A stretch of DNA of 64,000 nt from Plumapathes pennacea (lineage: Eukaryota; Cnidaria; Anthozoa; Antipatharia; Myriopathidae), in the NCBI GenBank assembly GCA_964036295.1, contig OZ038469.1, forward strand, positions 11,362,067 to 11,426,066, written 5' to 3'. The notes under the pieces were generated by a model, which was not told the origin of the DNA, ran no database searches, and was given only the letters and a program-made list of their open reading frames with translations. Positions 20,697-53,646 of the stretch are shown here, piece after piece (position 1 is the first letter of the stretch; each line of letters opens with the position of its first letter). Position numbers and translations under genes: made by a program.

Positions 20697-23600
20697 AAGC
20701 TGCTATATCTCGCCAACGGATGACGATAGATAAAGCAAATGTATTGCAAAAAGTCTTCTAATAGTCCAAGGAAGGTTTCCTGAAAGTTTCAAAAGTTTCA
20801 ATTTTTGGCCAAAATCGGCAAAAAACCCTGTGCTATAGCCTTAGTATTTTGTCAAAATTCCAAGATTTTTCGACCATCTCAGAATCGCATGAAACTTTCA
20901 GGAAACGTTCCTGGGACTATGCCGACGGTTTTTGCATAATTTTTGTAAACTTTTAGCCGGCGCGTCGTGAGAAATTCGAGCAAATTTGAGCAAATCATGC
21001 ACTAATTAAAAAATCACACCTTTCGCGCAAAGGAGCCAATTTAAGCTGGTATATCTCGCGAACGGATGACGATAGATAAAGCAAATGTATTGCAAAAAGT
21101 CTTGTAATAGTCCAAGGAAGGTTTCCTGAAAGTTTCAAGAGTTTTCAATTTTTGGCCAAAATCGGCAAAAAACCCTGTGCTATAGCCTTAGTATTTTGTC
21201 AAAATTCCAAGATTTTTCGACCATCTCAGAATCGAATGAAACTTTCAGGAAACGTTCCAGGGACTATTCCGACGGTTTTTGCATAGTTTTTGTAAACTTT
21301 TAGCCCGCGCGTCGTGAGAAATTAGAGCAAATTCGAGCAAATCATGCATTAATTAAAACATCACACCTTTCGCGGAAAGGAGCCAAACTTAAGCTGCTAT
21401 ATCTCGCCAACGGATGACGATAGATAAAGCAAATGTATTGCAAAAAGTCTTCTAATAGTCCAAAGAAGGTTTCCTGAAAGTTTCAAGAGTTTTCAATTTT
21501 TGGCCAAAATCGGCAAAAAACCCTGTGCTATAGCCTTAGTATTTTGTCAAAATTCCAACATTTTTCGACCATCTCAGAATCGCATGAAACTTTCAGGAAA
21601 CGTTCCAGGGACTATGCCGACGGGTTTTGCATAGTTTTTGTAAACTTTTAGCTCGCGCGTGGTGAGAAATTCGAGCAAATTTGAGCAAATCATGCACTAA
21701 TTAAAACATCACACCTCTCGCGCAAAGGATCCAATTTAAGCTGCTATATCTCGCCAACGGATGACGATAGATAAAGCAAATGTATTGCAAAAAGTCTTGT
21801 AATAGTCCAAGGAAGGTTTCCTGAAACTTTCAAGAGTTTTCAATTTTTGGCCAAAATCGGCAAAAATCCCTGTGCTATAGCCTTAGTATTTTGTCAAAAT
21901 TCCAACATTTTTCGACCATCTCAGAATCGCATGAAACTTTCAGGAAACGTTCCAGGAACTATGCCGACGGGTTTTGCATAGTTTTTGTAAACTTTTAGCT
22001 CGCGCGTGGTGAGAAATTCGAGCAAATTTGAGCAAATCATGCACTAATTAAAACATCACACCTTTCGCGCAAAGGATCCAATTTAAGCTGCTATATCTCG
22101 CCAACGGATGACGATAGATAAAGCAAATGTATTGCAAAAAGTCTTGTAATAGTCCAAGGAAGGTTTCCTGAAAGTTTCAAGAGTTTTCAATTTTTGGCCA
22201 AAATCGGCAAAAATCCCTGTGCTATAGCCTTAGTATTTTGTCAAATTTCCAACATTTTTAGACCATCTGAGAATCGCATGAAACTTTCAGGAAACGTTCC
22301 TGGGACTATGCCGACGGATTTTGCATAGTTTTTGTAAACTTTTAGCCCGCGCGTGGTGAGAAAATTCGAGCAAATTCGAGCAAATCATGCACTAATTAAA
22401 ACATCACACCTTTCGCGCAAAGGTGCCAATTTAAGCTGCTATATCTCGCCAACGGATGACGATAGAAAAAGGAAATGTATTGCAAAAAGTCTTGTAATTG
22501 TCCAAGGAAGGTTTCCTGAAAGTTTCAAGAGTTTTCAATTTTTGGCCAAAATCGGCAAAAAACCCTGTGCTATAGCCTTAGTATTTTGTCAAAATTCCAA
22601 CATTTTTCGACCATCTCAGAATCGCATGAAACTTTCAGGAAACGTTCCTGGGACTATGCCGACGGTTTTTGCATAGTTTTTGTAAACTTTTAGCCGGCGC
22701 GTCGTGAGAAATTCGAGTAAATTCGAGCAAATCATGCATTAATTAAAACATCACACCTTTCGCGCAAAGGAGCCAATTTTAAGCTGCTATATCTCGCCAA
22801 CGGATGACGATAGATAAAGCAAATGTATTGCAAAAAGTCTTGTAATTGACCAAGGAAGGTTTCCTGAAAGTTTCAAGAGTTTTCAATTTTTGGCCAAAAT
22901 GGGCAAAAAACCCTGTGCTATAGCCTTAGTATTTTGTCAAAATTCTAAGATTTTTCGACCATCTCAGAATCGCATGAAACTTTCAGGAAACGTTCCAGGG
23001 ACTATGCCGACGGTTTTTGCTTAGTTTTTGTAAACTTTTAGCCCGCGCGTGGTGAGAAATTCGAGCAAATTCGAGCAAAGCATGCACTAATTAAAATATC
23101 ACACCTTTCGCGCAAAGGAGCCAATTTAAACTGCTATATCTCGCCAACGGATGACGATAGATAAAGCAAATGTATTGCAAAAAGTCTTGTAATAGTCCAA
23201 GGAAGGTTTCCTGAAAGTTTCAAGAGTTTTCAATTTTTGGCCAAAATCGGCAAAAAACCCTGTGCTATAGCCTTAGTATTTTGTCAAATTTCCAAGATTT
23301 TCGACCATCTCAGAATCGCATGAAACTTTCAGGAAACGTTCCAGGGACTATCCCGACGGGTTTTGCATAGTTTTTGTAAACTTTTAGCCCGCGCGTCGTG
23401 AGAAATTCGAGTAAATTCGAGCAAATCATGCATTAATTAAAACATCACACCTTTCGCGCAAAGGAGTCAAACTTAAGCTACTATATCTCGCCAACTGATG
23501 ACGATAGATAAAGCAAATGTATTGCAAAAAGTCTTGTAATTGTCCAAGGAAGGTTTCCTGAAAGTTTCAAGAGTTTTCAATTTTTGGCCAAAATCGGCAA

Positions 23601-26600
23601 AAAACCCTGTGCTATAGCCTTAGTATTTTGTCAAAATTCCAAGATTTTTCGACCATCTCAGAATCGCATGAAACTTTCAGGAAACGTTCCTGGGACTATG
23701 CCGATGGATTTTGCATAGTTTTTGTAAACTTTTAGCCCGCGCGTCGTGAGAAATTCGAGTAAATTCGAGGAAATCATGCACTAATTAAAACATCACACCT
23801 TTCGCGCAAAGGAGCCAATTTTAAGCTGCTATATCTCGCCAACGGATGACGATAGATAAAGAAATATATTGCAAAAAGTCTTGTAATTGTCCAAGGAAGA
23901 TTTCCTGAAAGTTTCAAGAGTTTTCAATTTTTGGCCAAAATGAGCAAAAAACCCTGTGCTATAGCCTTAGTATTTTGTCAAAATTCCAACATTTTTCGAC
24001 CATCTCAGAATCGCATGAAACTTTCAGGAAACGTTCCAGGGACTATGCCGACGGTTTTTGCATAGTTTTTGTAAACTTTTAGCCCGCGCGTCGTGAGAAA
24101 TTCGAGTAATTTTGAGCAAATCATGCATTAATTAAAACATCACACCTTTCGCGGAAAGGAGCAAAATTTAAGCTGGTATATCTCGCCAACGGATGACGAT
24201 AGATAAAGCAAATGTATTGCAAAAAGTCTTGTAATAGTCCAAGGAAGGTTTCCCGAAAGTTTCAAGAGTTTTCAATTTTTGGCCAAAATCGGCAAAAAAC
24301 CCTTTGCTATAGCCTTAGTATTTTGTCAAAATTCCAAGATTTTTCGACCATCTCAGAATCGCATGAAACTTTCAGGAAACGTTCCAGGGACTATACCGAC
24401 GGTTTTTGAATAGTTTTTGTAAACTTTTAGCCCGCGCGTCGTGAGAAATTCGAGTAAATTCGAGCAAATCATGCACTAATTAAAACATCACACCTTTCGC
24501 GCAAAGGAGCCAATTTAAGCTGGTATATCTCGCCAACGGATGACGATAGATAAAGCAAATGTATTGCAAAAAGTCTTGTAATAGTCCAAGGAAGGTTTTC
24601 TGAAAGTTTCAAGAGTTTTCAATTTTTGGCCAAAATCGGCAAAAAACCCTGTGCTATAGCCTTAGTATTTTGTCAAAATTCCAAGATTTTTCGACCATCT
24701 GAGAATCGCATGAAACTTTCAGGAAACGTTCCAGGGACTATGCCGACGGGTTTTGCATAGTTTTTGTAAACTTTTAGCCGGCGCGTGGTGAGAAATTCGA
24801 GCAAATTTGAGCAAATCATGCATTAATTAAAACATCACACCTTTCGCGCAAAGGAGCCAATTTAAGCTGGTATATCTCGCCAACGGATGACGATAGATAA
24901 AGCAAATGTATTGCAAAAAGTCTTGTAATTGACCAAGGAAGGTTTCCTGAAAGTTTCAAGAGTTTTCAATTTTTGGCCAAAATCGGCAAAAAACCCTCTG
25001 CTATAGCCTTAGTATTTGTCAAAATTCCAAGATTTTTCGATCATCTCAGAATCGCATGAAACTTTCAGGAAACGTTCCAGGGACTATGCCGACGGGTTTT
25101 GCATAGTTTTTGTAGACTATTAGCCCGCGCGTGGTGAGAAATTCGAGCAAATTTGAGCAAATCATGCACTATTTAAAACATCACACCTTTCGCGCAAAGG
25201 AGCCAAATTAAGCTGGTATATCTCGCCAACGGATGACGATAGATAAAGCAAATGTATTGCAAAAAGTCTTGTAATAGTCCAAGGAAGGTTTCCTGAAAGT
25301 TTCAAGAGTTTTCAATTTTTGGCCAAAATCGGCAAAAAACCCTGTGCTATAGCCTTAGTATTTTGTCAAAATTCCAAGATTTTTCGACCATCTCAGAATC
25401 GCATGAAACTTTAAGGAAACGTTCCAGGGACTATGCCGACGGTTTTTGCATAGTTTTTGTAAACTTTTAGCCCGCGCGTCGTGAGAAATTCGAGTAAATT
25501 CGAGCAAATCATGCATTAATTAAAACATCACACCTTTCGCGCAAAGGAGCCAAACTTAAGCTGCTATATCTCGCCAACGGATGACGATAGATAAAGCAAA
25601 AGTAAAACAAAAAGTCTTGTAATTGTCCAAAAAAGGTTTCCTGAAAGTTTCAAGAGTTTTCAATTTTTGGCCAAAATCGGCAAAAAACCCTGTGCTATAG
25701 CCTTAGTATTTTGTCAAAATTCCAAAATTTTTCGACCATCTGAGAATCGCATGAAACTTTCACGAAACGTTCCAGGGACTATGCCTAAGGGTTTTGCATA
25801 GTTTTTGTAAACTTTTAGCCCGCGCGTGGTGAGAAATTCGAGTAAATTTAAACAAATCATGCACTAATTAAAACATCACACCTTTCGCGCAAAGGAGCCA
25901 ATTTAAGCTGCTATATCTCGCCAACGGATGACGATAGATAAAGCAAAAGTAAAACAAAAAGTCTTGTAATAGTCCAAGGAAGGTTTCCTGAAAGTTTCAA
26001 GAGTTTTCAATTTTTGGCCAAAATCGGCAAAAAACCCTGTGCTATAGCCTTAGTATTTTGTCAAATTTCCAAGATTTTTCGACCATCTGAGAATCGCATG
26101 AAACTTTCACGAAACGTTCCAGGGACTAAGCCGACGGTTTTTGCATACTTTTTGTAAACTTTTAGCCGGCGCGTCGTGAGAAATTCGGGTAAATTTGAGG
26201 AAATCATGCATTAATTAAAACATCACACCTTTCGCGCAAAGGAACCAATTTTAAGCTGCTATATCTCGCCAACGGATGACGATAGATAAAGCAAATGTAT
26301 TGCAAAAAGTCTTGTAATTGACCAAGGAAGGTTTCCTGAAAGTTTCAAGAGTTTTCAATTTTTGGCCAAAATCGGCAAAAAACCCTGTGCTATAGCCTTA
26401 GTATTTTGTCAAAATTCCAAGATTTTTCGACCATCTCAGAATCGCATGAAACTTTCAGGAAACGTTCCAGGGACTATGCCGACGGTTTTTGAATAGTTTT
26501 TGTAAACTTTTAGCCGGCGCGTGGTGAGAAATTCGAGTAAATTCGAGCAAATCATGCACTAATTAAAACATCACACCTTTCGCGCAAAGGAGCCAATTTA

Positions 26601-29236
26601 AGCTGGTATATCTCGCCAACGGATGACGATAGATAAAACAAATGTATTGCAAAAAGTCTTGTAATAGTCCAAGGAAGGTTTCCTGAAAGTTTCAAGAGTT
26701 TTCAATTTTTGGCCAAAATCGGCAAAAAACCCTGTGCTATAGCCTTAGTATTTTGTCAAAATTCCAAGATTTTTCGACCATGTCAGAATCGCATGAAACT
26801 TTCAGGAAACGTTCCAGGGACTATGCCGACGGGTTTTGAATAGTTTTTGTAAACTTTTAGCCCGCGCGTGGTGAGAAATTCGAGTAAATTCGAGCAAATC
26901 ATGCACTAATTAAAACATCACACCTTTCGCGAAAAGGAGCCAATTTAAGCTGGTATATCTCGCCAACGGATGACGATAGATAAAGCAAATGTATTGCAAC
27001 AAGTCTTGTAATAGTCCAAGGAAGGTTTCCTGAAAGTTTCAAGAGTTTTCAATTTTTGGCCAAAATCGGCAAAAAACCCTGTGCTATAGCCTTAGTATTT
27101 TGTCAAAATTCCAAGGTTTTTCGACCATCTCAGAATCGCATGAAACTTTCAGGAAACGTTCCAGGGAATATGCCGACGGGTTTTGCATAGTTTTTGTAAA
27201 CTTTTAGCCGGCGCGTCGTGAGAAATTAGAGCAAATTCGAGCAAATCATGCATTAATTAAAACATTACACCTTTCGCGCAAAGGAGCCAAACTTAAGCTG
27301 CTATATCTCGCCAACGGATGACGATAGATAAAGCAAATGTATTGCAAAAAGTCTTGTAATTGACCAAGGAAGGTTTCCTGAAAGTTTCAAGAGTTTTCAA
27401 TTTTTGGCCAAAATCGGCAAAAAACCCTGTGCTATAGCCTTAGTATTTTGTCAAAATTCCAAGATTTTTCGACCATCTCAGAATCGCATGAAACTTTCAG
27501 GAAACGTTCCAGGGACTATGCCGACGGGTTTTGCATAGTTTTTGTAAACTTTTAGCCCGCGCGTGGTGAGAAATTCGAGCAAATTTGAGCAAATCATGCA
27601 CTAATTAAAACATCACACCTTTCGCGCAAAGGAGCCAATTTAAGCTGCTATGTCTCGCCAACGGATGACGATAGATAAAGCAAATGTATTGCAAAAAGTC
27701 TTGTAATAGTCCAAGGAAGGTTTCCTGAAAGTTTCAAGAGTTTTCAATTTTTGGCCAAAATCGGCAAAAAACCCTGTGCTATAGCCTTAGTATTTTGTCA
27801 AAATTCCAAGATTTTTCGACCATCTCAGAATCGCATGAAACTTTCAGGAAACGTTCCAGGGACTATGCCGACGGTTTTTGCATAGTTTTTGTAAACTTTT
27901 AGCCCGCGCGTCATGAGAAATTCGAGTAAATTCGAGCAAATCATGCATTAATTAAAACATCACACCTTTCGCGCAAAGGAGCCAAACTTAAGCTGCTATA
28001 TCTCGCCAACGGATGACGATAGATAAAGCAAATGTATTGCAAAAAGTCTTGTAATTGTCCAAGGAAGGTTTCCTGAAAGTTTCAAGAGTTTTCAATTTTT
28101 GGCCAAAATCGGCAAAAAGCCCTGTGCTGTAGCCTTAATTTTTTGTCAAAATTCCAAGATTTTTCGACCATCTGAGAATCGCATGAAACTTTCAGGAAAC
28201 GTTCCAGGGACTATGCCGACGGTTTTTGAATAGTTTTTGTAAACTTTTAGCCCGCGCGTCGTGAGAAATTCGAGTAAATTTGAGCAAATCATGCATTAAT
28301 TAAAACATCACACCTTTCGCGAAAAGGAGCCAAACTTAAGCTGCTATATCTCGCCAACGGATGACGATAGATAAAGCAAATGTATTGCAAAAAGTCTTGT
28401 AATAGTCCAAGGAAGGTTTCCTGAAAGTTTCAAGAGTTTTCAATTTTTGGCCAAAAGCGGCAAAAAACCCTGTGCTATAGCCTTAGTATTTTGTCAAATT
28501 TCCAAGATTTTTCGACCATCTCAGAATCGCATGAAACTTTCAGGAAACGTTCCAGGGACTATGCCGACGGTTTTTGCATAGTTTTTGTAAACTTTTAGCC
28601 CGCGCGTCGTGAGAAATTCGAGTAAATTCGAGCAAATCATGCATTAATTAAAACATCACACCTTTCGCGCAAAGGAGCCAAACTTAAGCTGCTATATCTC
28701 GCCAACGGATGACGATAGATAAAGCAAATGTATTGCAAAAAGTCTTGTAATTGTCCAAGGAAGGTTTCCTGAAAGTTTCAAGAGTTTTCAATTTTTGGCC
28801 AAAATCGGCAAAAAGCCCTGTGCTGTAGCCTTAATTTTTTGTCAAAATTCCAAGATTTTTCGACCATCTGAGAATCGCATGAAACTTTCAGGAAACGTTC
28901 CAGGGACTATGCCGACGGTTTTTGCATAGTTTTTGTAAACTTTTAGCCCGCGCGTCGTGAGAAATTCGAGTAAATTCGAGCAAATCATGCATTAATTAAA
29001 ACATCACACCTTTCGCGAAAAGGAGCCAAACTTAAGCTGCTATATCTCGCCAACGGATGACGATAAATAAAGCAAATGTATTGCAAAAAGTCTTGTAATT
29101 GTCCAAGGAAGATTTCCTGAAAGTTTCAAGAGTTTTCAATTTTTGGCCAAAATCGGCAAAAAGCCCTGTGCTATAGCCTTAATTGTTTGTCAAAATTCCA
29201 AGATTTTTCGACCATCTCAGAATCGCATGAAACTTT

Positions 29237-32200
29237 CAGAAAACGTTCCAGGGACTATGCCGACAGTTTTTGCATACTTTTTGTAAACTTTTAGCCGGCG
29301 AGTGGTGAGAAATTCGAGCAAATTTGAGCAAATCATGCACTAATTAAAACATCACACCTTTCGCGCAAAGGAGCAAAATTTAAGCTGCTATATCTCGCCA
29401 ACGGATGTCGATAGATAAAGCAAATGTATTGCAACAAGTCTTGTAATTGACCAAGGAAGGTTTCCTGAAAGTTTCAAGAGTTTTCAATTTTTGGCCAAAA
29501 TCGGCAAAAAGCCCTGTGCTATAGCCTTAGTATTTTGTCAAAATTCCAAGATTTTTCGACCATCTCAGAATTGCATGAAACTTTCAGGAAACGTTCCAGG
29601 GACTATGCCGACGGTTTTTGCATAGTTTTTGTAAACTTTTAGCTGGCGCGTGGTGAGAAATTCGAGTAAATTCGAGCAAATCATGCACTAATTAAAACAT
29701 CACACCTTTCGCGCAAAGGAGCCAATTTAAGCTGGTATATCTCGCCAACGGATGACGATAGATAAAGCAAATGTATTGCAACAAGTCTTGTAATAGTCCA
29801 AGGAAGGTTTCCTGAAAGTTTCAAGAGTTTTCAATTTTTGGCCAAAATCGGCAAAAAACCCTGTGCTATAGCCTTAGTATTTTGTCAAAATTCCAAGATT
29901 TTTCGACCATCTCAGAATTGCATGAAACTTTCAGGAAACGTTCCAGGGACTATGCCGACGGTTTTTGAATAGTTTTTGTAAACTTTTAGCCCGCGCGTGG
30001 TGAGAAATTCGAGTAAATTCGAGCAAATCATGCACTAATTAAAACATCACACCTTTCGCGCAAAGGAGCCAATTTAAGCTGGTATATCTCGCCAACGGAT
30101 GACGATAGATAAAGCAAATGTATTGCAACAAGTCTTGTAATAGTCCAAGGAAGGTTTCCTGAAAGTTTCAAGAGTTTTCAATTTTTGGTCAAAATCGGCA
30201 AAAAACCCTGTGCTATAGCCTTAGTATTTTGTCAAAATTCCAAGATTTTTCGACCATCTCAGAATCGCATGAAACTTTCAGGAAACGTTCCAGGGACTAT
30301 GCCGACGGGTTTTGCATAGTTTTTGTAAACTTTTAGTCCGCGCGTCGTGAGAAATTCGAGCAAATTTGAGCAAATCATGCACTAATTAAAACATCACACC
30401 TTTCGCGCATAGGAGCCAATTTAAGCTGCTATGTCTCGCCAACGGATGACGATAGATAAAGCAAATGTATTGCAAAAAGTCTTGTAATTGACCAAGGAAG
30501 GTTTCCTGAAAGTTTCAAGAGTTTTCAATTTTTGGCCAAAATCGGCAAAAAACCCTGTGCTATAGCCTTACTATTTGTCAAAATTCCAAGATTTTTCGAC
30601 CATCTCAAAATCGCATGAAACTTTCAGGAAACGTTCCAGGGACTATGCCGACGGGTTTTGCATAGTTTTTGTAAACTTTTAGCCCGCGCGTGGTGAGAAA
30701 TTCGAGTAAATTCGAGCAAATCATGCATTAATTAAAACATCACACCTTTCGCGCAAAGGAGCCAAACTTAAGCTGCTATATCTCGCCAACGGATGACGAT
30801 AGATAAAGCAAATGTATTGCAAAAAGTCTTGTAATTGTCCAAGGAAGGTTTCCTGAAAGTTTCAAGAGTTTTCAATTTTTGGCCAAAATCGGCAAAAAGC
30901 CCTGTGCTATAGCCTTAATTTTTTGTCAAAATTCCAAGATTTTTCGACCATCTCAGAATCGCATGAAACTTTCAGGAAACGTTCCAGGGACTATGCCGAC
31001 GGTTTTTGCATACTTTTTGTAAACTTTTAGCCGGCGAGTGGTGAGAAATTCGAGTAAATTCGAGCAAATCATGCACTAATTAAAACATCACACCTTTCGC
31101 GCAAAGGAGCCAATTTAAGCTGCTATATCTCGCCAACGGATGACGATAGATAAAGCAAATGTATTGCAACAAGTCTTGTAATAGTCCAAGGAAGGTTTCC
31201 TGAAAGTTTCAAGAGTTTTCAATTTTTGGCCAAAATCGGCAAAAAACCCTGTGCTATAGCCTTAGTATTTTGTCAAAATTCCAAGATTTTTCGACCATCT
31301 CAGAATTGCATGAAACTTTCAGGAAACGTTCCAGGGACTATGCCGACGGTTTTTGCATAGTTTTTGTAAACTTTTAGCCCGCGCGTCGTGAGAAATTCGA
31401 GTAAATTCGAGCAAATCATGCATTAAATAAAACATCACACCTTTCGCGCAAAGGAGCCAAACTTAAGCTGCTATATCTCGCCAACGGATGACGATAGATA
31501 AAGCAAATGTATTGCAAAATGTCTTGTAATTGTCCAAGGAAGGTTTCCTGAAAGTTTCAAGAGTTTTCAATTTTTGGCCAAAATCGGCAAAAAGCCCTGT
31601 GCTATAGCCTTAATTTTTTGTCAAAATTCCAAGATTTTTCGACCATCTCAGAATCGCATGAAACTTTCAGAAAACGTTCCAGGGACTATGCCGACGGTTT
31701 TTGCATACTTTTTGTAAACTTTTAGCCGGCGAGTGGTGAGAAATTCGAGCAAATTTGAGCAAATCATGCACTAATTAAAACATCACACCTTTCGCGCAAA
31801 GGAGCAAAATTTAAGCTGCTATATCTCGCCAACGGATGTCGATAGATAAAGCAAATGTATTGCAACAAGTCTTGTAATTGACCAAGGAAGGTTTCCTGAA
31901 AGTTTCAAGAGTTTTCAATTTTTGGCCAAAATCGGCAAAAAGCCCTGTGCTATAGCCTTAGTATTTTGTCAAAATTCCAAGATTTTTCGACCATCTCAGA
32001 ATTGCATGAAACTTTCAGGAAACGTTCCAGGGACTATGCCGACGGTTTTTGCATAGTTTTTGTAAACTTTTAGCTGGCGCGTGGTGAGAAATTCGAGTAA
32101 ATTCGAGCAAATCATGCACTAATTAAAACATCACACCTTTCGCGCAAAGGAGCCAATTTAAGCTGGTATATCTCGCCAACGGATGACGATAGATAAAGCA

Positions 32201-34098
32201 AATGTATTGCAACAAGTCTTGTAATAGTCCAAGGAAGGTTTCCTGAAAGTTTCAAGAGTTTTCAATTTTTGGCCAAAATCGGCAAAAAACCCTGTGCTAT
32301 AGCCTTAGTATTTTGTCAAAATTCCAAGATTTTTCGACCATCTCAGAATTGCATGAAACTTTCAGGAAACGTTCCAGGGACTATGCCGACGGTTTTTGAA
32401 TAGTTTTTGTAAACTTTTAGCCCGCGCGTGGTGAGAAATTCGAGTAAATTCGAGCAAATCATGCACTAATTAAAACATCACACCTTTCGCGCAAAGGAGC
32501 CAATTTAAGCTGGTATATCTCGCCAACGGATGACGATAGATAAAGCAAATGTATTGCAACAAGTCTTGTAATAGTCCAAGGAAGGTTTCCTGAAAGTTTC
32601 AAGAGTTTTCAATTTTTGGTCAAAATCGGCAAAAAACCCTGTGCTATAGCCTTAGTATTTTGTCAAAATTCCAAGATTTTTCGACCATCTCAGAATCGCA
32701 TGAAACTTTCAGGAAACGTTCCAGGGACTATGCCGACGGGTTTTGCATAGTTTTTGTAAACTTTTAGTCCGCGCGTCGTGAGAAATTCGAGCAAATTTGA
32801 GCAAATCATGCACTAATTAAAACATCACACCTTTCGCGCATAGGAGCCAATTTAAGCTGCTATGTCTCGCCAACGGATGACGATAGATAAAGCAAATGTA
32901 TTGCAAAAAGTCTTGTAATTGACCAAGGAAGGTTTCCTGAAAGTTTCAAGAGTTTTCAATTTTTGGCCAAAATCGGCAAAAAACCCTGTGCTATAGCCTT
33001 ACTATTTGTCAAAATTCCAAGATTTTTCGACCATCTCAAAATCGCATGAAACTTTCAGGAAACGTTCCAGGGACTATGCCGACGGGTTTTGCATAGTTTT
33101 TGTAAACTTTTAGCCCGCGCGTGGTGAGAAATTCGAGTAAATTCGAGCAAATCATGCATTAATTAAAACATCACACCTTTCGCGCAAAGGAGCCAAACTT
33201 AAGCTGCTATATCTCGCCAACGGATGACGATAGATAAAGCAAATGTATTGCAAAAAGTCTTGTAATTGTCCAAGGAAGGTTTCCTGAAAGTTTCAAGAGT
33301 TTTCAATTTTTGGCCAAAATCGGCAAAAAGCCCTGTGCTATAGCCTTAATTTTTTGTCAAAATTCCAAGATTTTTCGACCATCTCAGAATCGCATGAAAC
33401 TTTCAGGAAACGTTCCAGGGACTATGCCGACGGTTTTTGCATACTTTTTGTAAACTTTTAGCCGGCGAGTGGTGAGAAATTCGAGTAAATTCGAGCAAAT
33501 CATGCACTAATTAAAACATCACACCTTTCGCGCAAAGGAGCCAATTTAAGCTGCTATATCTCGCCAACGGATGACGATAGATAAAGCAAATGTATTGCAA
33601 CAAGTCTTGTAATAGTCCAAGGAAGGTTTCCTGAAAGTTTCAAGAGTTTTCAATTTTTGGCCAAAATCGGCAAAAAACCCTGTGCTATAGCCTTAGTATT
33701 TTGTCAAAATTCCAAGATTTTTCGACCATCTCAGAATTGCATGAAACTTTCAGGAAACGTTCCAGGGACTATGCCGACGGTTTTTGCATAGTTTTTGTAA
33801 ACTTTTAGCCCGCGCGTCGTGAGAAATTCGAGTAAATTCGAGCAAATCATGCATTAATTAAAACATCACACCTTTCGCGCAAAGGAGCCAAACTTAAGCT
33901 GCTATATCTCGCCAACGGATGACGATAGATAAAGCAAATGTATTGCAAAAAGTCTTGTAATTGTCCAAGGAAGGTTTCCTGAAAGTTTCAAGAGTTTTCA
34001 ATTTTTGGCCAAAATCGGCAAAAAGCCCTGTGCTATAGCCTTAATTTTTTGTCAAAATTCCAAGATTTTTCGACCATCTCAGAATCGCATGAAACTTT
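29237..34098 (+). repeat. Higher-order repeat: 7-monomer unit of 2,431 bp, two copies
   Basis: Rare variants recur at a fixed distance of about 2,431 bp: CAGAAAACG at 29237 and 31668, ACGGATGTCG at 29401 and 31832, TTTTGGTCAAAATC at about 30187 and 32617, CGCGCATAGGAG at about 30405 and 32837, and the shortened CTTACTATTTGTC at about 30568 and 32999. Seven monomers were thus copied together recently. The two units are almost identical by eye. Confidence 0.85.
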
Positions 34099-37000: not shown

Positions 37001-37760
37001 AGCCAATTTAAGCTGGTATATCTCGGCAACGGATGACGATAGATAAAGCAAATGTATTGCAACAAGTCTTGTAATAGTCCAAGGAAGGTTTCCTGAAAGT
37101 TTCAAGAGTTTTCAATTTTTGGCCAAAATCGCAAAAAACCCTGTGCTATAGCCTTAGTATTTTGTCAAAATTCCAAGATTTTTCGACCATCTCAGAATTG
37201 CATGAAACTTTCAGGAAACGTTCCAGGGACTATGCCGACGGTTTTTGAATAGTTTTTGTAAACTTTTAGCCCGCGCGTCGTGAGAAATTCGAGTAAATTC
37301 GAGCAAATCATGCACTAATTAAAACATCACACCTTTCGCGCAAAGGAGCCAATTTAAGCTGCTATATCTCGCCAACGGATGACGATAGATAAAGCAAATG
37401 TATTGCAACAAGTCTTGTAATAGTCCAAGGAAGGTTTCCTGAAAGTTTCAAGAGTTTTCAATTTTTGGCCAAAATCGCAAAAAACCCTGTGCTATAGCCT
37501 TAGTATTTTGTCAAAATTCCAAGATTTTTCGACCATCTCAGAATTGCATGAAACTTTCAGGAAACGTTCCAGGGACTATGCCGACGGGTTTTGCATAGTT
37601 TTTGTAAACTTTTAGCCCGCGCGTGGTGAGAAATTCGAGCAAATTTGAGCAAATCATGCACTAATTAAAACATCACACCTTTCGCGCAAAGGAGCCAATT
37701 TAAGCTGCTATGTCTCGCCAACGGATGACGATAGATAAAGCAAATGTATTGCAAAAAGTC

Positions 37761-40700: not shown

Positions 40701-43700
40701 TATGCCGACGGTTTTTGAATAGTTTTTGTAAACTTTTAGCCCGCGCGTGGTGAGAAATTCGAGTAAATTCGAGCAAATCATGCACTAATTAAAAAATCAG
40801 ACCTTTCGCGCAAAGGAGCCAATTTAAGCTGGTATATCTCGCCAACGGATGACGATAGATAAAGCAAATGTATTGCAAGAAGTCTTGTAATAGTCCAAGG
40901 AAGGTTTCCTGAAAGTTTCAAGAGTTTTCAATTTTTGGCCAAAATCGCAAAAAACCCTGTGCTATAGCCTTAGTATTTTGTCAAAATTCCAAGATTTTTC
41001 GACCATCTCAGAATTGCATGAAACTTTCAGGAAACGTTCCAGGGACAATGCCGACGGTTTTTGAATAGTTTTTGTAAACTTTTAGCCCGCGCGTGGTGAG
41101 AAATTCGAGTAAATTCGAGCAAATCATGCACTAATTAAAACAACACACCTTTCGCGCAAAGGAGCCAATTTAAGCTGGTATATCTCGCCAACGGATGACG
41201 ATAGATAAAGCAAATGTATTGCAACAAGTCTTGTAATAGTCCAAGGAAGGTTTCCTGAAAGTTTCAAGAGTTTTCAATTTTTGGCCAAAATCGGCAAAAA
41301 ACCCTGTGCTATAGCCTTAGTATTTTGTCAAATTTCCAAGATTTTTCGACCATCTCAGAATCGCACGAAACTTTCAGGAAACGTTCCAGGGACTATGCCG
41401 ACGGGTTTAGCATAGTTTTTGTAAACTTTTAGCCCGCGCGTGGTGAGAAATTTTAGCAAATTTGAGCAAATCATGCACTAATTAAAACATCACACCTTTC
41501 GCGCAAAGGAGCCAATTTAAGCTGCTATGTCTCGCCAACGGATGACGATAGATAAAGCAAATGTATTGCAAAAAGTCTTGTAATTGACGAAGGAAGGTTT
41601 CCTGAAAGTTTCAAGAGTTTTCAATTTTTGGCCAAAATCGGCAAAAAACCCTGTGCTATAGCCTTAGTATTTTGTCAAAATTCCAAGATTTTTCGACCAT
41701 CTCAGAATCGCATGAAACTTTCAGGAAACGTTCCAGGGACTATGCCGACGGGTTTTGCATAGTTTTTGTAAACTTTTAGCCCGCGCGTCGTGAGAAATTC
41801 GAGTAAATTCGAGCAAATCATGCATTAATTAAAACATCACACCTTTCGCGCAAAGGAGCCAATTTAAGCTGCTATATCTCGCCAACGGATGACGATAGAT
41901 AAAGCAAATGTATTGCAAAAAGTCTTGTAATTGTCCAAGAAAGGTTTCCTGAAAGTTTCAAGAGTTTTCAATTTTTGGCCAAAATCGGCAGAAAGCCCTG
42001 TGCTAGAGCCTTAATTTTTTGTCAAAATTCCAAGATTTTTCGACCATCTCAGAATCGCATGAAACTTTCAGGAAACGTTCCAGGGACTATGCCGACGGTT
42101 TTTGCATAGCTTTTGTAAACTTTTAGCCGGCGCGTGGTGAGAAATTCGAGTAAATTCGAGCAAATCATGCACTAATTAAAACATCACACCTTTCGCGCAA
42201 AGGAGCCAATTTAAGCTGGTATATCTCGCCAACGGATGACGATAGATAAAGCAAATGTATTGCAACAAGTCTTGTAATAGTCCAAGGAAGGTTTCCTGAA
42301 AGTTTCAAGAGTTTTCAATTTTTGGCCAAAATCGGCAAAAAACCCTGTGCTATAGCCTTAGTATTTTGTCAAAATTCCAAGATTTTTCGACCATCTCAGA
42401 ATTGCATGAAACTTTCAGGAAACGTTCCAGGGACTATGCCGACGGTTTTTGAATAGTTTTTGTAAACTTTTAGCCCGCGCGTGGTGAGAAATTCGAGTAA
42501 ATTCGAGCAAATCATGCACTAATTAAAACATCACACCTTTCGCGCAAAGGAGCCAATTTAAGCTGGTATATCTCGCCAACGGATGACGATAGATAAAGCA
42601 AATGTATTGCAACAAGTCTTGTAATAGTCCAAGGAAGGTTTCCTGAAAGTTTCAAGAGTTTTCAATTTTTGGCCAAAATCGGCAAAAAACCCTGTGCTAT
42701 AGCCTTAGTATTTTGTCAAAATTCCAAGATTTTTCGACCATCTCAGAATCGCATGAAACTTTCAGGAAACGTTCCAGGGACTATGCCGACGGGTTTTGCA
42801 TAGTTTTTCTAAATTTTTAGCCCGCCCGTGGTGAGAAATTCGAGCACATTTGAGCAAATCATGCACTAATTAAAACATCACACCTTTCGCGCAAAGGAGC
42901 CAATTTAAGCTGTTATATCTCGCCAACGGATGACGATAGATAAAGCAAATGTATTGCAAAAAGTCTTGTAATTGACCAAGGAAGGTTTCCTGAAAGTTTC
43001 AAGAGTTTTCAATTTTTGGCCAAAATGGGCAAAAAACCCTGTGCTATATATAGTCTTACTATTTGTCAAAATTCCAAGATTTTTCGACCATCTCAGAATC
43101 GCATGAAACTTTCAGGAAACGTTCCAGGGACTATGCCGACGGGTTTTGCATAGTTTTTGTAAACTTTTAGCCCGCGCGTGGTGAGAAATTCGAGTAAATT
43201 CGAGCAAATCATGCACTAATTAAAAAATCACACCTTTCGCGCAAAGGAGCCAATTTAAGCTGGTATATCTCGCCAACGGATGACGATAGATAAAGCAAAT
43301 GTATTGCAACAAGTCTTGTAATAGTCCAAGGAAGGTTTCCTGAAAGTTTCAAGAGTTTTCAATTTTTGGCCAAAATCGCAAAAAACCCTGTGCTATAGCC
43401 TTAGTATTTTGTCAAAATTCCAAGATTTTTCGACCATCTCAGAATTGCATGAAACTTTCAGGAAACGTTCCAGGGACTATGCCGACGGTTTTTGAATAGT
43501 TTTTGTAAACTTTTAGCCTGCGCGTGGTGAGAAATTCGAGTAAATTCGAGCAAATCATGCACTAATTAAAACATCACACCTTTCGCGCAAAGGAGCCAAT
43601 TTAAGCTGGTATATCTCGCCAACGGATGACGATAGATAAAGCAAATGTATTGCAACAAGTCTTGTAATAGTCCAAGGAAGGTTTCCTGAAAGTTTCAAGA

Positions 43701-46700
43701 GTTTTCAATTTTTGGCCAAAATCGGCAAAAAACCCTGTGCTATAGCTTAAGTATTTTGTCAAATTTCCAAGATTTTTCGACCATCTGAGAATCGCATGAA
43801 ACTTTCAGGAAACGTTCCAGGGACTATGCCGACGGGTTTTGCATAGTTTTTGTAAACTTTTAGCCCGCGCGTGGTGAGAAATTCGAGCAAATTTGAGCAA
43901 ATCATGCACTAATTAAAACATCACACCTTTCGCGCAAAGGAGCCAATTTAAGCTGCTATGTTTCGCCAACGGATGACGATAGATAAAGCAAATGTATTGC
44001 AAAAAGTCTTGTAATTGACGAAGGAAGGTTTCCTGAAAGTTTCAAGAGTTTTCAATTTTTGGCCAAAATCGGCAAAAAACCCTGTGCTATAGCCTTAGTA
44101 TTTTGTCAAAATTCCAAGATTTTTCGACCATCTCAGAATCGCATGAAACTTTCAGGAAACGTTCCAGGGACTATGCCGACGGGTTTTGCATAGTTTTTGT
44201 AAACTTTTAGCCCGCGCGTCGTGAGAAATTCGAGTAAATTCGAGCAAATCATGCATTAATTAAAACATCACACCTTTCGCGCAAAGGAGCCAATTTAAGC
44301 TGGTATATCTCGCCAACGGATGACGATAGATAAAGCAAATGTATTGCAACAAGTCTTGTAATTGTCCAAGAAAGGTTTCCTGAAAGTTTCAAGAGTTTTC
44401 AATTTTTGGCCAAAATCGGCAAAAAGCCCTGTGCCTTAATTTTTTGTCAAAATTCCAAGATTTTTCGACCATCTCAGAATCGCATGAAACTTTCAGGAAA
44501 CGTTCCAGGGACTATGCCGACGGTTTTTGCATACTTTTTGTAAACTTTTAGCCGGCGAGTGGTGAAAAATTCAAGCAAATTTGAGGAAATCATGCACTAT
44601 TTAAAACATTACACCTTTCGCGCAAAGGAGCAAAATTTAAGCTGCTATATCTCGCCAACGGATGACGATAGATAAAGCAAATGTATTGCAAAAAGTCTTG
44701 TAATTGACCAAGGAAGGTTTCCTGAAAGTTTCAAGAGTTTTCAATTTTTGGCCAAAATCGGGAAAAACCCCTGTGCTATAGCCTTAGTATTTTGTCAAAA
44801 TTCCAAGATTTTTCGACCATCTCAGAATCGCATGAAACTTTCAGGAAACGTTCCAGGGACTATGCCGACGGTTTTTGCATAGTTTTTGTAAACTTTTAGC
44901 CGGCGCGTGGTGAGAAATTCGAGTAAATTCGAGCAAATCATGCACTAATTAAAACATCACACCTTTCGCGCAAAGGAGCCAATTTAAGCTGGTATATCTC
45001 GCCAACGGATGACGATAGATAAAGCAAATGTATTGCAACAAGTCTTGTAATAGTCCAAGGAAGGTTTCCTGAAAGTTTCAAGAGTTTTCAATTTTTGGCC
45101 AAAATCGGCAAAAAACCCTGTGCTATAGCCTTAGTATTTTGTCAAAATTCCAAGATTTTTCGACCATCTCAGAATTGCATGAAACTTTCAGGAAACGTTC
45201 CAGGGACTATGCCGACGGTTTTTGAATAGTTTTTGTAAACTTTTAGCCCGCGCGTGGTGAGAAATTCGAGTAAATTCGAGCAAATCATGCACTAATTAAA
45301 ACATCACACCTTTCGCGCAAAGGAGCCAATTTAAGCTGGTATATCTCGCCAACGGATGACGATAGATAAAGCAAATGTATTGCAACAAGTCTTGTAATAG
45401 TCCAAGGAAGGTTTCCTGAAAGTTTCAAGAGTTTTCAATTTTTGGCCAAAATCGGCAAAAAACCCTGTGCTATAGCCTTAGTATTTTGTCAAAATTCCAA
45501 GATTTTTCGACCATCTCAGAATCGCATGAAACTTTCAGGAAACGTTCCAGGGACTATGCCGACGGGTTTTGCATAGTTTTTCTAAATTTTTAGCCCGCCC
45601 GTGGTGAGAAATTAGAGCACATTTGAGCAAATCATGCACTAATTAAAACATCACACCTTTCGCGCAAAGGAGCCAATTTAAGCTGCTATATCTCGCCAAC
45701 GGATGACGATAGATAAAGCAAATGTATTGCAAAAAGTCTTGTAATTGACCAAGGAAGGTTTCCTGAAAGTTTCAAGAGTTTTCAATTTTTGGCCAAAATG
45801 GGCAAAAAACCCTGTGCTATATATAGTCTTACTATTTGTCAAAATTCCAAGATTTTTCGACCATCTCAGAATCGCATGAGACTTTCAGGAAACGTTCCAG
45901 GGACTATGCCGACGGGTTTTGCATAGTTTTTGTAAACTTTTAGCCCGCGCGTGGTGAGAAATTCGAGCAAATTCGAGCAAATCATGCACTAATTAAAACA
46001 TCACACCTTTCGCGCAAAGGAGCCAATTTAAGCTGGTATATCTCGCCAACGGATTACGATAGATAAAGCAAATGTATTGCAACAAGTCTTGTAATAGTCC
46101 AAGGAAGGTTTCCTGAAAGTTTCAAGAGTTTTCAATTTTTGGCCAAAATCGGCAAAAAGCCCTGTGCTATAGCCTTAGTATTTTGTCAAAATTCCAAGAT
46201 TTTTCGACCATCTCAGAATCGCATGAAACTTTCAGGAAACGTTCCAGGGACTATGCCGACGGTTTTTGAATAATTTTTGTAAACTTTTAGCCCGCACGTG
46301 GTGAGAAATTCGAGCAAATTCGAGCAAATCATGCACTAATTAAAACATCACACCTTTCGCGTAAAGGAGCCAATTTAAGCTGCTATATCTCGCCAACGGA
46401 TGACGATAGATAAAGCAAATGTATTGCAACAAGTCTTGTAATAGTCCAAGGAAGGTTTCCTGAAAGTTTCAAGAGTTTTCAATTTTTGGCCAAAATCGGC
46501 AAAAAGCCCTGTGCTATAGCCTTAGTATTTTGTCAAAATTCCAAGATTTTTCGACCATCTCAGAATCGCATGAAACTTTCAGGAAACGTTCCAGGGACTA
46601 TGCCGACGGGTTTTGCATAGTTTTTGTAAACTTCTAGCCCGCGCGTCGTGAGAAATTCGAGCAAATTCGAGCAAATCATGCATTAATTAAAACATCACAC

Positions 46701-47230
46701 CTTTCACGCAAAGGAGCCAAACTTAAGCTGCTATATCTCGCCAACGGATGACGATAGATAAAGCAAATGTATTGCAAAAAGTCTTGTAATTGACCAAGGA
46801 AGGTTTCCTGAAAGTTTCAAGAGTTTTCAATTTTTGGCCAAAATCGGCAAAAAAACCCTGTGCTATAGCCTTAGTATTTTGTCAAAATTCCAAGATTTTT
46901 CGACCATCTCAGAATCGCATGAAACTTTCAGGAAACGTTCCAGGGACTATGCCGACGGGTTTTGCATAGTTTTTGTAAACTTTTAGCCGGCGCGTCGTGA
47001 GAAATTCGAGCAAATTCGAGCAAATCATGCATTAATTAAAACATCACACCTTTCGCGCAAAGGAGCCAAACTTAAGCTGTTATATCTCGCCAACGGATGA
47101 CGATAGATAAAGCAAATGTATTGCAAAAAGTCTTGTAATTGACCAAGGAAGGTTTCCTGAAAGTTTCAAGAGTTTTCAATTTTTGGCCAAAATCGGCAAA
47201 AAACCCTGTGCTATATATAGTCTTACTATT
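37761..47230 (+). repeat. Further higher-order repeats (7, 8, 10 and 11 monomers)
   Basis: The variant TTGTAATTGACGAAGG occurs at 37761, 41578 and 44009 (spacings 3,817 and 2,431 bp: 11 and 7 monomers). The variant GTGCTATATATAGTC occurs at 39571, 43041, 45814 and 47208 (spacings 3,470, 2,773 and 1,394: 10, 8 and 4 monomers). Unequal exchange has copied blocks of different lengths. Confidence 0.8.
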
Positions 47231-50200
47231 TGTCAAAATTCCAAGATTTTTCGACAATCTCAGAATCGCATGAGACTTTCAGGAAACGTTCAAGGGACTA
47301 TGCCGACGGGTTTTGCATAGTTTTTGTAAACTTTTAGCCCGCGCGTGGTGAGAAATTCGAGCAAATTTGAGCAAATCATGCACTAATTAAAACATCACAC
47401 CTTTCGCGCAAAGGAGCCAATTTAAGCTGCTATATCTCGCCAACGGATGACGATAGATAAAGCAAATGTATTGCAAAAAGTCTTGTAATAGTCCAAGGAA
47501 GGTTTCCTGAAAGTTTCAAGAGTTTTCAATTTTTGGCCAAAATCGGCAAAAAGCCCTGTGCTATAGCCTTAGTATTTTGTCAAAATTCCAAGATTTTTCG
47601 ACCATCTCAGAATCGCATGAAACTTTCAGGAAACGTTTCAGGGACTATGCCGACGGTTTTTGAATAGTTTTTGTAAACTTCTAGCCCGCGCGTGGTGAGA
47701 AATTCGAGTAAATTCGAGCAAATCATGCACTAATTAAAACATCACACCTTTCGCGCAAAGGAGCCAATTTAAGCTGCTATATCTCGCCAACGGATGACGA
47801 TAGATAAAGCAAATGTCTTGCAACAAGTCTTGTAATAGTCCAAGGAAGGTTTCCTGAAAGTTTCAAGAGTTTTCAATTTTTGGCCAAAATCGGCAAAAAA
47901 CCCTGTGCTATAGCCTTAGTATTTTGTCGAAATTCCAAAATTTTTCGACCATCTCAGAATCGCATGAAACTTTCAGGAAACGTTCCAGGGACAATGCCGA
48001 CGGGTTTTGCATAGTTTTTGTAAACTTTTAGCTGGCGCGTCGTGAGAAATTTGAGCAAATTCGAGCAAATCATGCATTAATTAAAACATCACACCTTTCG
48101 CGCAAAGGAGCCATACTTAAGCTGCTATATCTCGCCTACGGATGACGATAGATAAAGCAAATGTATTGCAAAAAGTCTTGTAATTGACCAAGGAAGGTTT
48201 CCTGAAAGTTTCAAGAGTTTTCAATTTTTGGCCAAAATCGGCAAAAAGCCCTGTGCTATAGCCTTAGTATTTTGTCAAAATTCCAAGATTTTTCGACCAT
48301 CTCAGAATCGCATGAAACTTTCAGGAAACGTTCCAGGGACTATTTGACGGGTTTTGCATAGTTTTTGTAAACTTTTAGTCAGCGCGTGGTGAGAAATTCG
48401 AGCACATTTGAGCAAATCATGCACTAATTAAAACATCACACCTTTCGCGCAAAGGAGCCAATTTAAGCTGCTATATCTTGCCAACGGATGACGATAGATA
48501 AAGCAAATGTATTGCAAAAAGTCTTGTAATTGACCAAGGAAGGTTTCCTGAAAGTTTCAAGAGTTTTCAATTTTTGGCCAAAATCGGCAAAAAGCCCTGT
48601 GCTATAGCCTTAGTATTTTGTCAAAATTCCAAGATTTTTCGACCATCTCAGAATCGCATGAAACTTTCAGGAAACGTTCCAGGGACTATGCCGACGGGTT
48701 TTGCATAGTTTTTGTAAACTTTTAGCCGGCGCGTCGTGAGAAATTCGAGCAAATTCGAGCAAATCATGCACTAATTAAAACATCACACCTTTCGCGCAAA
48801 GGAGCCAAACTTAAGCTGTTATATCTCGCCAACGGATGACGATAGATAAAGCAAATGTATTGCGAAAAGTCTTGTAATTGACCAAGGAAGGTTTCCTGAA
48901 AGTTTCAAGAATTTTCAATTTTTGGCCAAAATCGGCAAAAAACCCTGTGCTATAGCCTTAGTATTTTGTCGAAATTCCAAAATTTTTCGACCATCTCAGA
49001 ATCGCATGAGACTTTCAGGAAACGTTCCAGGGACAATGCCGACGGGTTTTGCATAGTTTTTGTAAACTTTTAGCTGGCGCGTCGTGAGAAATTTGAGCAA
49101 ATTCGAGCAAATCATGCATTAATTAAAACATCACACCTTTCGCGCAAAGGAGCCATACTTAAGCTGCTATATCTCGCCAACGGATGACGATAGATAAAGC
49201 AAATGTATTGCAAAAAGTCTTGTAATTGTCCAAGGAAGGTTTCCTGAAAGTTTCAAGAGTTTTCAATTTTTGGCCAAAATCGGCAAAAAGCCCTGTGCTA
49301 TAGCCTTAGTATTTTGTCAAAATTCCAAGATTTTTCGACCATCTCAGAATCGCATAAAACTTTCAGGAAACGTTCCAGGGACTATGCCGACGGGTTTTGC
49401 ATAGTTTTTGTAAACTTTTAGCCGGCGCGTGGTGAGAAATTCGAGCAAGTTTGAGCAAATCATGCACTAATTAAAACATCACACCTTTCGCGCAAAGGAG
49501 CCAATTTAAGCTGCTATATCTTGCCAACGGATGACGATAGATAAAGCAAAAGTATTGCAAAAAGTCTTGTAATTGTCCAAGGAAGGTTTCCTGAAAGTTT
49601 CAAGAATTTTCAATTTTTGGCCAAAATCTGCAAAAAACCCTGTGCTATAGCCTTAGTATTTTGTCAAAATTCCAAGATTTTTCGACCATCTCAGAATCGC
49701 ATGAAACTTTCAGGAAACGTTCCAGGGACTATTTGACGGGTTTTGCATAGTTTTTGTAATCTTTTAGCCCGCGCGTCGTGAGGAATTCGAGTAAATTCGA
49801 GCAAATCATGCATTAATTAAAACATCACACCTTTCGCGCAAAGGAGCCAAACTTAAGCTGCTATATCTCGCCAACGGATGACGATAGATAAAGCAAATGT
49901 ATTGCAAAAAGTCTTGTAATTGACCAAGGAAGGTTTCCTGAAAGTTTCAAGAGTTTTCAATTTTTGGCCAAAATCGGCAAAAAACCCTGTGCTATACCCT
50001 TAGTATTTTGTCAAAATTCCAAGATTTTTCGACCATCTCAGAATCACATGAAACTTTCAGGAAACGTTCCAGGGACTATGCCGACGGTTTTTGAATAGTT
50101 TTTGTAAACTTTTAGCCGGCGAGTGGTGAGAAATTCGAGCAAGTTTGAGCAAATCATGCACTAATTAAAACATCACACCTTTCGCGCAAAGGAGCAAAAT

Positions 50201-53200
50201 TTAAGCTGCTATATCTCGCCAACGGATGACGATAGATAAAGCAAATGTATTGCAAAAAGTCTTGTAATTGTCCAAGGAAGGTTTCCTGAAAGTTTCAAGA
50301 GTTTTCACTTTTTGGCCAAAATCGGCAAAAAACCCTGTGCTATAGCCTTAGTATTTTGTCAAAATTCCAAGATTTTTCGACCATCTGAGAATCGCATGAA
50401 ACTTTCAGGAAACGTTCCTGGGACTATGCCGACGGTTTTTGCATAGTTTTTGTAAACTTTTAGCCCGCGCGTCGTGAGAAATTCGAGTAAATTCGAGATA
50501 ATCATGCATTAATTAAAACATCACACCTTTCGCGCTAAGGAGCCAAACTTAAGCTGCTATATCTCGCCAACGGATGACGATAGATAAAGCAAATGTATTG
50601 CAAAAAGTCTTGTAATTGTCCAAGGGAGGTTTCCTGAAAGTTTCAAGAGTTTTCAATTTTTGGCCAAAATGGGCAAAAAACCCTGTGCTATAGCCTTAGT
50701 ACTTTGTCAAAATTCCAAGATTTTTCGACCATCCCACAATCGCATGAAACTTTCAGGAAACGTTGCTGGGACTATTCCGACGGGTTTTGCAAAGCTTTTG
50801 TAAACTTTTAGTCCGTGCGTCGTGAGAAAATCGAGTAAATTCGAGCAAATCATGCATTAATTAAAACATCACACCTTTCGCGCATAGGAGCCAATTTAAG
50901 CTGCTATGTCTCGCCAACGGATGACGATAGATAAAGCAAATGTATTGCAAAAAGTCTTGTAATTGACCAAGGAAGGTTTCCTGAAAGTTTCAAGAGTTTT
51001 CAATTTTTGGCCAAAATCGGCAAAAAACCCTGTGCTATAGCCTTACTATTTGTCAAAATTCCAAGATTTTTCGACCATCTCAGAATCGCATGAAACTTTC
51101 AGAAAAAGTTCCTGGGACTATGCCGACGGGTTGGGCACAGTTTTTGTAAACTTTTAGCCCGTTCGTCGTGAGAAATTCGAGCAAATTCGAGCAAATCATG
51201 CACTAATTAAAACATCACACCTTTCGCGCAAAGGAGCCAAAATTAAGCTGCTATATCTCGCCAACGGATGACGATAGATAAAGCAAATGTATTGCAAAAA
51301 GTCTTGTAATAGTCCAAGGAAGGTTTCCTGAAAGTTTCATGAGTTTTCAATTTTTGGCCAAAATGGGCAAAAAACCCTGTGCTATAGCCTTAGTATTTTG
51401 TCAAAATTCCAAGATTTTTCGACCATCTCAGAATCGCATGAAACTTTCAGGAAACGTTCCTGGGACTATGCCGACAGGTTTTGCATATTTTTTGTAAACT
51501 TTTAGCCCGCGCGTCGTGAGAAATTCGAGCAAATTCGAGCAAATCATGCACTAATTAAAACATCACAGCTTTCGCACAAAGGAGCCAAATTTAAGCTGGT
51601 ATATCTCGCCAACGGATGACGATAGATAAAGCATATGTATTGCAAAAAGTCTTGTAATAGTCCAAGGAAGGTTTCCTGAAAGTTTCAAGAGTTTTCAATT
51701 TTTGGCCAAAATCGGCAAAAAACCCTGCTATAGCCTTAGTATTTTGTCAAAATTCCAAGATTTTTCGACCATCTCAGAATCGCATGAAACTTTCAGGAAA
51801 CGTTCCTGGGACTATTCCGACGGTTTTTGCATAGTTTTTGTAAACTTTTAGCCCGCTCGTCGTGAGAAATTTGAATAAATTCGAGCAAATCATGCATTAA
51901 TTAAAACATCACACCTTTCGCGCTAAGGAGCCAAACTTAAGCTGCTATATCTCGCCAACGGATGACGATAGATAAAGCAAATGTATTGCAAAAAGTCTTG
52001 TAATTGTCCAAGGGAGGTTTCCTGAAAGTTTCAAGAGTTTTCAATTTTTGGCCAAAATGGGCAAAAAACCCTGTGCTATAGCCTTAGTACTTTGTCAAAA
52101 TTCCAAGATTTTTCGACCATCTCAGAATCACATGAAACTTTCAGGAAACGTTGCTGGGACTATGCCGACGGGTTTTGCAAAGCTTTTGTAAACTTTTAGT
52201 CCGCGCGTGGTGAGAAATTCGAGCACATTTGAGCAAATCATGCACTAATTAAAACATCACACCTTTCGCGCAAAGGAGCCAATTTCAGCTGCTATATCTC
52301 GCCAACGGATGACGATAGATAAAGCAAATGTATTACAAAAAGTCTTGAAATAGTCCAAGGAAGGTTTCCTGAAAGTTTCAAGAGTTTTCAATTTTTGGCC
52401 AAAATCGGCAAAAACCCTGTGCTATAGCCTTAGTATTTTGTCAAAATTCCAAGATTTTTCGACCATCTCAGAATCGCATGAAACTTTCAGGAAAAGTTCC
52501 TGGGACTATGCCGACGGGCTGGGCACAGTTTTTGTAAACTTTTAGCCCGTTCGTCGTGAGAAATTCGAGCAAATTCGAGCAAATCATGCACTAATTAAAA
52601 CATCACACCTTTCGCGCAAAGGAGCCAAAATTAAGCTGCTATATCTCGCCAACGGATGACGATAGATAAACCAAATGTATTGCAACAAGTCTTGTAATAG
52701 TCCAAGGAAGGTTTCCTGAAAGTTTCATGAGTTTTCAATTTTTGGCCAAAATGGGCAAAAAACCCTGTGCTATAGCCTTAGTATTTTGTCAAAATTCCAA
52801 CATTTTTCGAATATCTCACAATCGCATGAAACTTTCAGGAAACGTTCCTGGGACTATGCCGACGGGTTTTGCATAGTTTTTGTAAACTTTTAGCCCGCTC
52901 GTCGTGAGAAATTCGAGCAACTTCGAGCAAATCATACAAAAAATAAAACATCACACCTTTCGCGCAAAAGAGCCAAATTTAAGCCCCTATATCTCGCCAA
53001 CGGATGACGATAGATAAAGCAAATGTATTGCAAAAAGTCTTGTAATAGTCCAAGGAAGGTTTCCTGAAAGTTTCAAGAGTTTTCAATTTTTGGCGAAAAT
53101 CGGCAAAAAACCCTGTGCTATAGCCTTAGTATTTTGTCAAAATTCCAAGATTTTTCGACTATCTCAGAATTGCATGAAACTTTCAGGAAAGGTTCCTGGG

Positions 53201-53294
53201 ACTATGCCGACGGGTTTTGCATAATTTTTGTAAACTTTTAGCCCGCGCGACGTGAGAAATTCGAGCAAATCATGCATTAATTAAAACATCACAC

Positions 53295-53646
53295 CTTTCG
53301 CGCAATGGAGCCAAATTTAAGCTGCTATATCTCGCGAACGGATGACGATAGATAAAGCAAATGTATTGCAAAAAGTCTTGTAAAAGTCCAAGGAAGGTTT
53401 CCTGAAAGTTTCAAGAGTTTTCAATTTTTGGCCAAAATCGGCAAAAAACCCTGTGCTATAGCCTTAGTATATACTAAGGTTATGGCACAGGGTTTTCTAC
53501 CGATTTTGGCCAAAAATTGAAAACTCTTGAAACTTTTAGGAAACCTTCTTTGGGCTATAACAAGACTTTTTGCAATACATTTGCTTTATCTATCTTCATC
53601 CGTTGGCGAGATATAGCAACTTAAATTTGGCTCCTTTGTTCGAAAG
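53295..53646. repeat. Spacer-free palindrome of about 350 bp at the right edge of the satellite
   Basis: The last direct monomer stops mid-unit at 53470 and the array then reads backward as an inverted copy to about 53646. The centre is the perfect 18-bp palindrome CCTTAGTATATACTAAGG at 53462-53479. Arms of about 175 bp match with scattered differences and no loop. Confidence 0.85.

Follow-up and report, generated by a model that had tools for sequence, protein, structure and literature searches.

A 33-kb satellite array in the interior of a Plumapathes pennacea chromosome probably belongs to a dispersed and subtelomeric superfamily and is homogenised locally

Subtelomeric satellites of plants, primates and other groups consist of units of several hundred bases that lie next to the telomere repeats and are common to non-homologous chromosome ends. 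Centromeric satellites of the alpha type form long, homogeneous tandem arrays with local block duplication. The satellite family described here, from the antipatharian Plumapathes pennacea, resembles the subtelomeric satellites in its units of several hundred bases beside telomere repeats, its presence at many ends and its interior relatives; unlike subtelomeric satellites generally, the array at the centre of this analysis is itself interior. The length and homogeneity of that array and its local block duplication recall alpha-type satellites, from which the family differs in having many arrays per arm and a concentration near the tips. Among hexacorals, Porites carries a 188-nt satellite that is arrayed in tandem in intergenic sequence, includes a palindromic telomere motif and is confined to Porites according to the available part of the source (PMC10236652). 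That satellite shares with the present family its hexacoral host, its intergenic tandem arrangement and a palindromic part, but its 188-nt unit contains TTAGGG (PMC10236652), whereas the unit here is about 347 bp and has no tandem TTAGGG. MA-TEL, a FISH marker for the telomere regions of several chromosomes of Micromussa amakusensis, is likewise a hexacoral repeat concentrated at several chromosome tips; it differs in being a 149-bp clone (PMC12355185). Zoantharian satellites show species-specific amplification, as far as the available portion of that report goes (PMC10586311). The accessible parts of the literature on cnidarian, coral and sea anemone satellites, including PMC9005458 and PMC11577847, described no such family. 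The family is new; its kind is already known.

The window, that is, the whole 64,000-nucleotide stretch that was analysed, contains no N and corresponds to positions 11362067-11426066 of chromosome C8 in an assembly of 290.0 Mb and 24 contigs, of which C1-C12 account for 289.3 Mb. TRF delimited an array at 20694-53470 with a period of 347, 94.4 copies and 95% matches. Unit-by-unit decomposition resolved it into 94 full head-to-tail units on the forward strand, closed by a 155-bp partial unit. Start-to-start spacings (n = 93) were 347 bp in 49 cases, 348 in 26, 346 in 11, 350 in four and 336, 342 and 349 in one each, so that 86 of the 93 were 346-348 bp. Pairwise divergence among the 94 units averaged 4.2% (range 0-10.3%), the G+C content was flat along the array at about 38-40%, and CpG was not depleted in the unit consensus (16 seen, 13.3 expected). 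There was no sign of coding in the array: 34 stop-to-stop frames in the window reach 100 aa or more, and a single one of them lies in the array (22338-22676, 112 aa); no Rfam family reached its gathering score anywhere in the 64-kb window, and ARAGORN, run on the window with the bacterial code, found nothing. The array is satellite DNA, a long head-to-tail run of alike, non-coding units, and in this the original prediction of a homogeneous, non-coding 33-kb array of a 347-bp satellite was borne out; the inverted edges, inverted halves and six-unit duplication described below were absent from it.

A self-cleaving RNA satellite of the retrozyme type was considered and rejected: besides the lack of Rfam support at gathering score in the window, none of the 11 matches returned for 1.4 kb of the array at E up to 10 was a ribozyme. 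A 26-base word of the unit had no matches in viral contigs.

Each 347-bp unit is an old pair of inverted halves. When the two parts of the consensus unit were aligned in inverted orientation the score was 51, compared with a maximum of 27 in 300 dinucleotide-shuffled pairs. The arms are clearest at about unit positions 52-98 and 198-244; in one example unit the half-unit alignment places the left arm at 21107-21137 on the forward strand and the right arm at 21237-21283 on the reverse strand. Such arms might be kept by selection if a transcript or single strand had to fold into a hairpin, and the predicted RNA fold of one unit was moderately better than that of shuffled sequences (z = -2.0, with 3 of 100 equally good), the arms being well conserved from array to array. 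Their conservation, however, did not exceed that of the middle of the unit. On the consensus fold, calculated from 13 of 17 array consensus or single-unit sequences, the covariation term was +0.72, a small penalty and no support, and double changes occurred in 4 of 51 pairs; Rfam returned sub-threshold matches only, even at E up to 10. Selection for a hairpin was rejected for want of covariation support and strikes us as a very remote prospect; the inverted halves are read as history and not as a selected fold.

Inverted unit pieces also border the array. A diverged partial unit on the reverse strand lies at the left edge (20612-20693; about 74% identical to the consensus, unit positions about 200-305), and at the right edge another (53471-53625, reverse strand) meets the last forward copy in a palindromic junction. 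The two arms of this junction agree at 143 of 155 positions; relative to the consensus, the forward arm has two differences and the inverted arm 10. At 15 visible array edges, where an inverted piece was counted within 700 bp of the edge, pieces of more than 70 bp were found at seven and shorter ones at two (51 and 68 bp), and six edges were without one.

Divergence from the consensus was 2.7% in the first five units of the window array, 2.4% in the middle and 3.8% in the last 15 units. A block of six units has been duplicated recently over 2083 bp, the forward-strand copies at 29379-31461 and 31810-33892 differing by one mismatch; the longest duplicated run in 500 permuted unit orders was three units, compared with six here. 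There is good support for local growth of the array through unequal exchange and the duplication of segments. By these processes the array would grow and shrink with no cellular role of its own being required.

The surroundings of the array contain other repeated sequence. Direct duplicates of one segment flank it (14008-19205 and 55737-62981, 87-96% alike in pieces), and in each of them one frame encodes an F5/8 type C domain. Inverted 172-bp arms at 55280-55451 and 55591-55762 are 93.6% identical and have a TA tract in each. Directly left of the array, 20152-20584 is similar to sequence not far from the left end of C2 (C2:60001-60600; 82% over 434 bp) and is therefore probably part of a dispersed element.

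The family occurs at many places along the chromosome arms. An exact 39-base core word had 3298 matches in the assembly (1924 forward, 1374 reverse), and the reversed word, used as a control, had none. The 100 matches listed of these 3298 fell at eight separate sites between 0.38 and 5.13 Mb of C1, and the stretches of all eight listed sites were fetched and their units mapped. Among the matches listed, five of these interior sites were in plus and three in minus orientation, with no orientation rule. The unit period was about 334-335 bp at six sites and about 347-348 bp at 1.79 and 5.12 Mb, and the identity of the units to the window consensus was mostly 84%-98%. Words differing by one letter from the consensus were used to sample mutated units along the genome, and further arm sites were seen, among the matches listed, on C3, C4, C5, C6, C7, C8 and C11. 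A word of the 347 type had 253 matches; those listed included C3:626-666 kb, where the last part was inverted, and a site at C3:4.40 Mb, where the first matches were. On C8, the family has another interior site, at 2.68 Mb, as well as matches at both ends. A 13-bp minisatellite (GTGGTAATCGGGA-like) adjoins three C1 arrays (L002:4421+, L003:7824+, L004:3416+).

The distribution of the family bears on the centromeric reading of the original prediction. As the centromere of C8, the array could point to its 33 kb of homogeneous sequence, its unit of about two nucleosome repeats and its interior location at 11.38-11.42 of 18.2 Mb. Single arms, however, carry several comparable arrays, and C1 has eight sites in its first 5.13 Mb instead of one dominant site per chromosome; small arrays dispersed along the arms, a pattern that the original prediction itself counted against a centromere, are largely what the genome shows among the matches listed. 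The window array is also not unusually large, given the 40-kb-scale match extent noted above on C3 and a 269-kb extent of one variant at the C4 right end (26.865-27.134 of 27.196 Mb), both being spans of matches between which the sequence may not be continuous array. A 117-base variant is private to the window locus, all 23 of its matches (one mismatch allowed) lying within the window array. The argument from two nucleosomes is weak because the unit lengths of sister arrays vary (about 334-335, 338, 347-348 and about 381 bp). As the family forms many scattered blocks and also lies beside many tips, the window array is, judged from the sequence, probably not a centromere; with many arrays per arm and enrichment near the tips, the centromere was rejected as the best reading, and we regard it as highly improbable. 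Length, homogeneity and an interior position do not on their own make a satellite array a centromere candidate, and a likely misreading is thereby corrected.

The concentration of the family near chromosome tips was measured with probes. End probes of 600 bp (n = 40) sampled each of the 24 ends at a distance of 15 kb and both ends of C1-C8 also at 60 kb. End probes of 300 bp sampled both ends of C9-C12 at 60 kb and, at 150 kb, 12 of the 13 ends where the 335-bp type of unit had not been found by then; the controls were 40 random interior pieces of 300 bp at least 1 Mb from the ends. The queries were the window consensus, a unit from the C3 end and the relative from the C2 end, with matches accepted at E up to 1e-6. 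The family was matched by 20 of 60 end probes and by 1 of 40 interior controls (Fisher p = 1.1e-4), the matches by distance being 8 among the 24 probes at 15 kb, 9 among the 24 at 60 kb and 3 among the 12 at 150 kb. The 600-bp end probes alone gave 17 of 40 (Fisher p = 2.1e-5); the 300-bp end probes alone gave 3 of 20, which was not significant against the controls (p = 0.10). Since the other two queries were derived from ends, we note that the window consensus as sole query matched 18 of 60 end probes and 1 of 40 controls.

A branch of the family with 335-bp units adjoins the telomere repeats. TTAGGG-type telomere tracts were seen at the starts of C3, C5, C6 and C9; on the first three of these the satellite starts, at the left end, some 0.4-1.0 kb inside the terminal tract, and at the C3 left end the telomere repeats give way to the 335-bp array at about base 808. 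Within the first 500 bases of C3 the telomere repeats switch head-to-head from CCCTAA to TTAGGG, which is possibly an assembly fold. The 335-bp type was found near at least 13 of the 24 chromosome ends by the probes and, for the C1 right end, by word search, and was not found by the probes at 11. Its polarity was plus at six of six left ends and minus at seven of seven right ends (p = 2.4e-4). Concentrated near many ends in a fixed orientation, and adjoining telomere repeats at the three junctions seen, the 335-bp branch is a subtelomeric satellite; the window array is not subtelomeric in position.

Other relatives at ends include a 381 type in plus orientation at the C2 left end, a 347-like type in minus orientation at the C9 right end, and a weak match (69.7%) at the C12 left end, whose minus orientation goes against the polarity rule. 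The C2 relative is diverged and occupies the whole contig start (C2:1-3000), where there are no telomere repeats; its units measure about 381 bp and follow an alternating two-unit pattern. Among the ends of C7, C9, C10, C11 and C12, several that lack the satellite have other sequences in common, and therefore other subtelomeric repeats exist; the left ends of C10 and C12, for example, are 99.6% identical over 484 bp.

End and interior types differ in their words. A 41-base end-type word had 2050 matches (954 forward, 1096 reverse), those listed lying at C1:8.1-60.7 kb. Counted by unit, it occurred in 24 of the 36 end units and in 4 of the 215 interior units, and the 39-base core word in 131 of the 215 interior units (94 of them window units) and in none of the 36 end units. 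Of the 33 matches of a one-letter variant of the 41-base word, 16 lay near ends, all in the expected orientation, but the other 17 lay in an interior array at C6:7.83 Mb, which thus has a word typical of the end type and is a counterpoint to the split between end and interior.

Relationships among units were examined over the shared core. Arrays at the ends of different chromosomes differed by 0.3-7%, whereas interior arrays differed by 1.3-4% within arrays (8.1% at C1:0.38 Mb) and 5-14% between them. A FastTree tree was built from 92 of 213 near-complete core units, with a maximum of eight per locus; it omits L003 and the partial units of L042, L084, L087 and L105, which have no core, and L133-L135, which were fetched later. 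Seven of eight interior arrays formed private clades with supports of 0.77-1.0 (0.87 for the window array). The exception was the array at C1:0.38 Mb, which did not form a clade; of the interior arrays examined, it resembled the end type most and lay closest to a tip. The 20 units from ten ends formed one clade (support 0.967), in which the ends were mixed: four ends contributed at least two units each, and not one of these four formed a clade. Most of the examined interior arrays are thus private and homogenised internally, and the end arrays are homogenised across chromosomes. Units more alike within than between arrays are the pattern of concerted evolution, which the interior arrays show with one exception in eight. 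The interior arrays are more diverse than the end arrays, and the end type could therefore be younger.

In our estimation, the window array quite probably belongs, as a locally homogenised interior array, to a satellite superfamily that is both dispersed and subtelomeric and whose units are about 335-381 bp long. Sequence exchange between chromosome tips occurs in other eukaryotes, and tip-to-tip exchange, the natural reading of the mixed end clade, may keep the end arrays alike here. New arrays may be founded by break repair that copies a few units to another place, or by excised circles that re-insert. For the reversed units at array edges, we prefer an account in which fold-back copying between the inverted arms would have made them. 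A more elaborate version, in which a polar subtelomeric satellite is homogenised among tips and its inverted halves allow fold-back copying to seed private arm arrays with palindromic edges, is a tentative and rather unlikely proposal.

The units might instead be the inner repeats of a mobile element, Helitron- or foldback-like, that spreads them. The dispersal of the arrays in both orientations, the inverted units at several edges and the minisatellite common to the flanks of three C1 arrays would fit such a carrier, but the phase of the edges varies from array to array, and what the 13 flanks compared (up to 2.5 kb each) had in common was limited to diverged units, the minisatellite and, between two flanks, a weak 144-bp match well away from the arrays. 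No common terminus was seen among these 13 flanks; the short minisatellite lay at three. A transposon carrier is not supported by the flanks compared, and we consider it improbable.

A scar of chromosome fusion was also considered for the window array and rejected, as no TTAGGG dimer occurs within the 64-kb window and interior arrays are many.

The whole family may be roughly estimated, from word counts in the assembled sequence that were scaled up, at about 5400 interior and about 3100 end units, or about 2.9 Mb and about 1% of the assembly. Within one genome, the arrays at the tips look exchanged between chromosomes and those in the arms do not. With this contrast, the part that chromosome position plays in satellite evolution can be put to the test in an animal of an early-branching lineage.

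Contig C24 (17,711 bp) is the mitochondrial genome; it reads well in the coelenterate code and supports a cnidarian origin of the DNA. Its genes, which we named by eye, presumably include a nad5 in two parts, with nad1 and nad3 between them, and a cox1 whose frame is interrupted by another open frame, an arrangement that we take to be that of a hexacoral allied to sea anemones, zoanthids or black corals.
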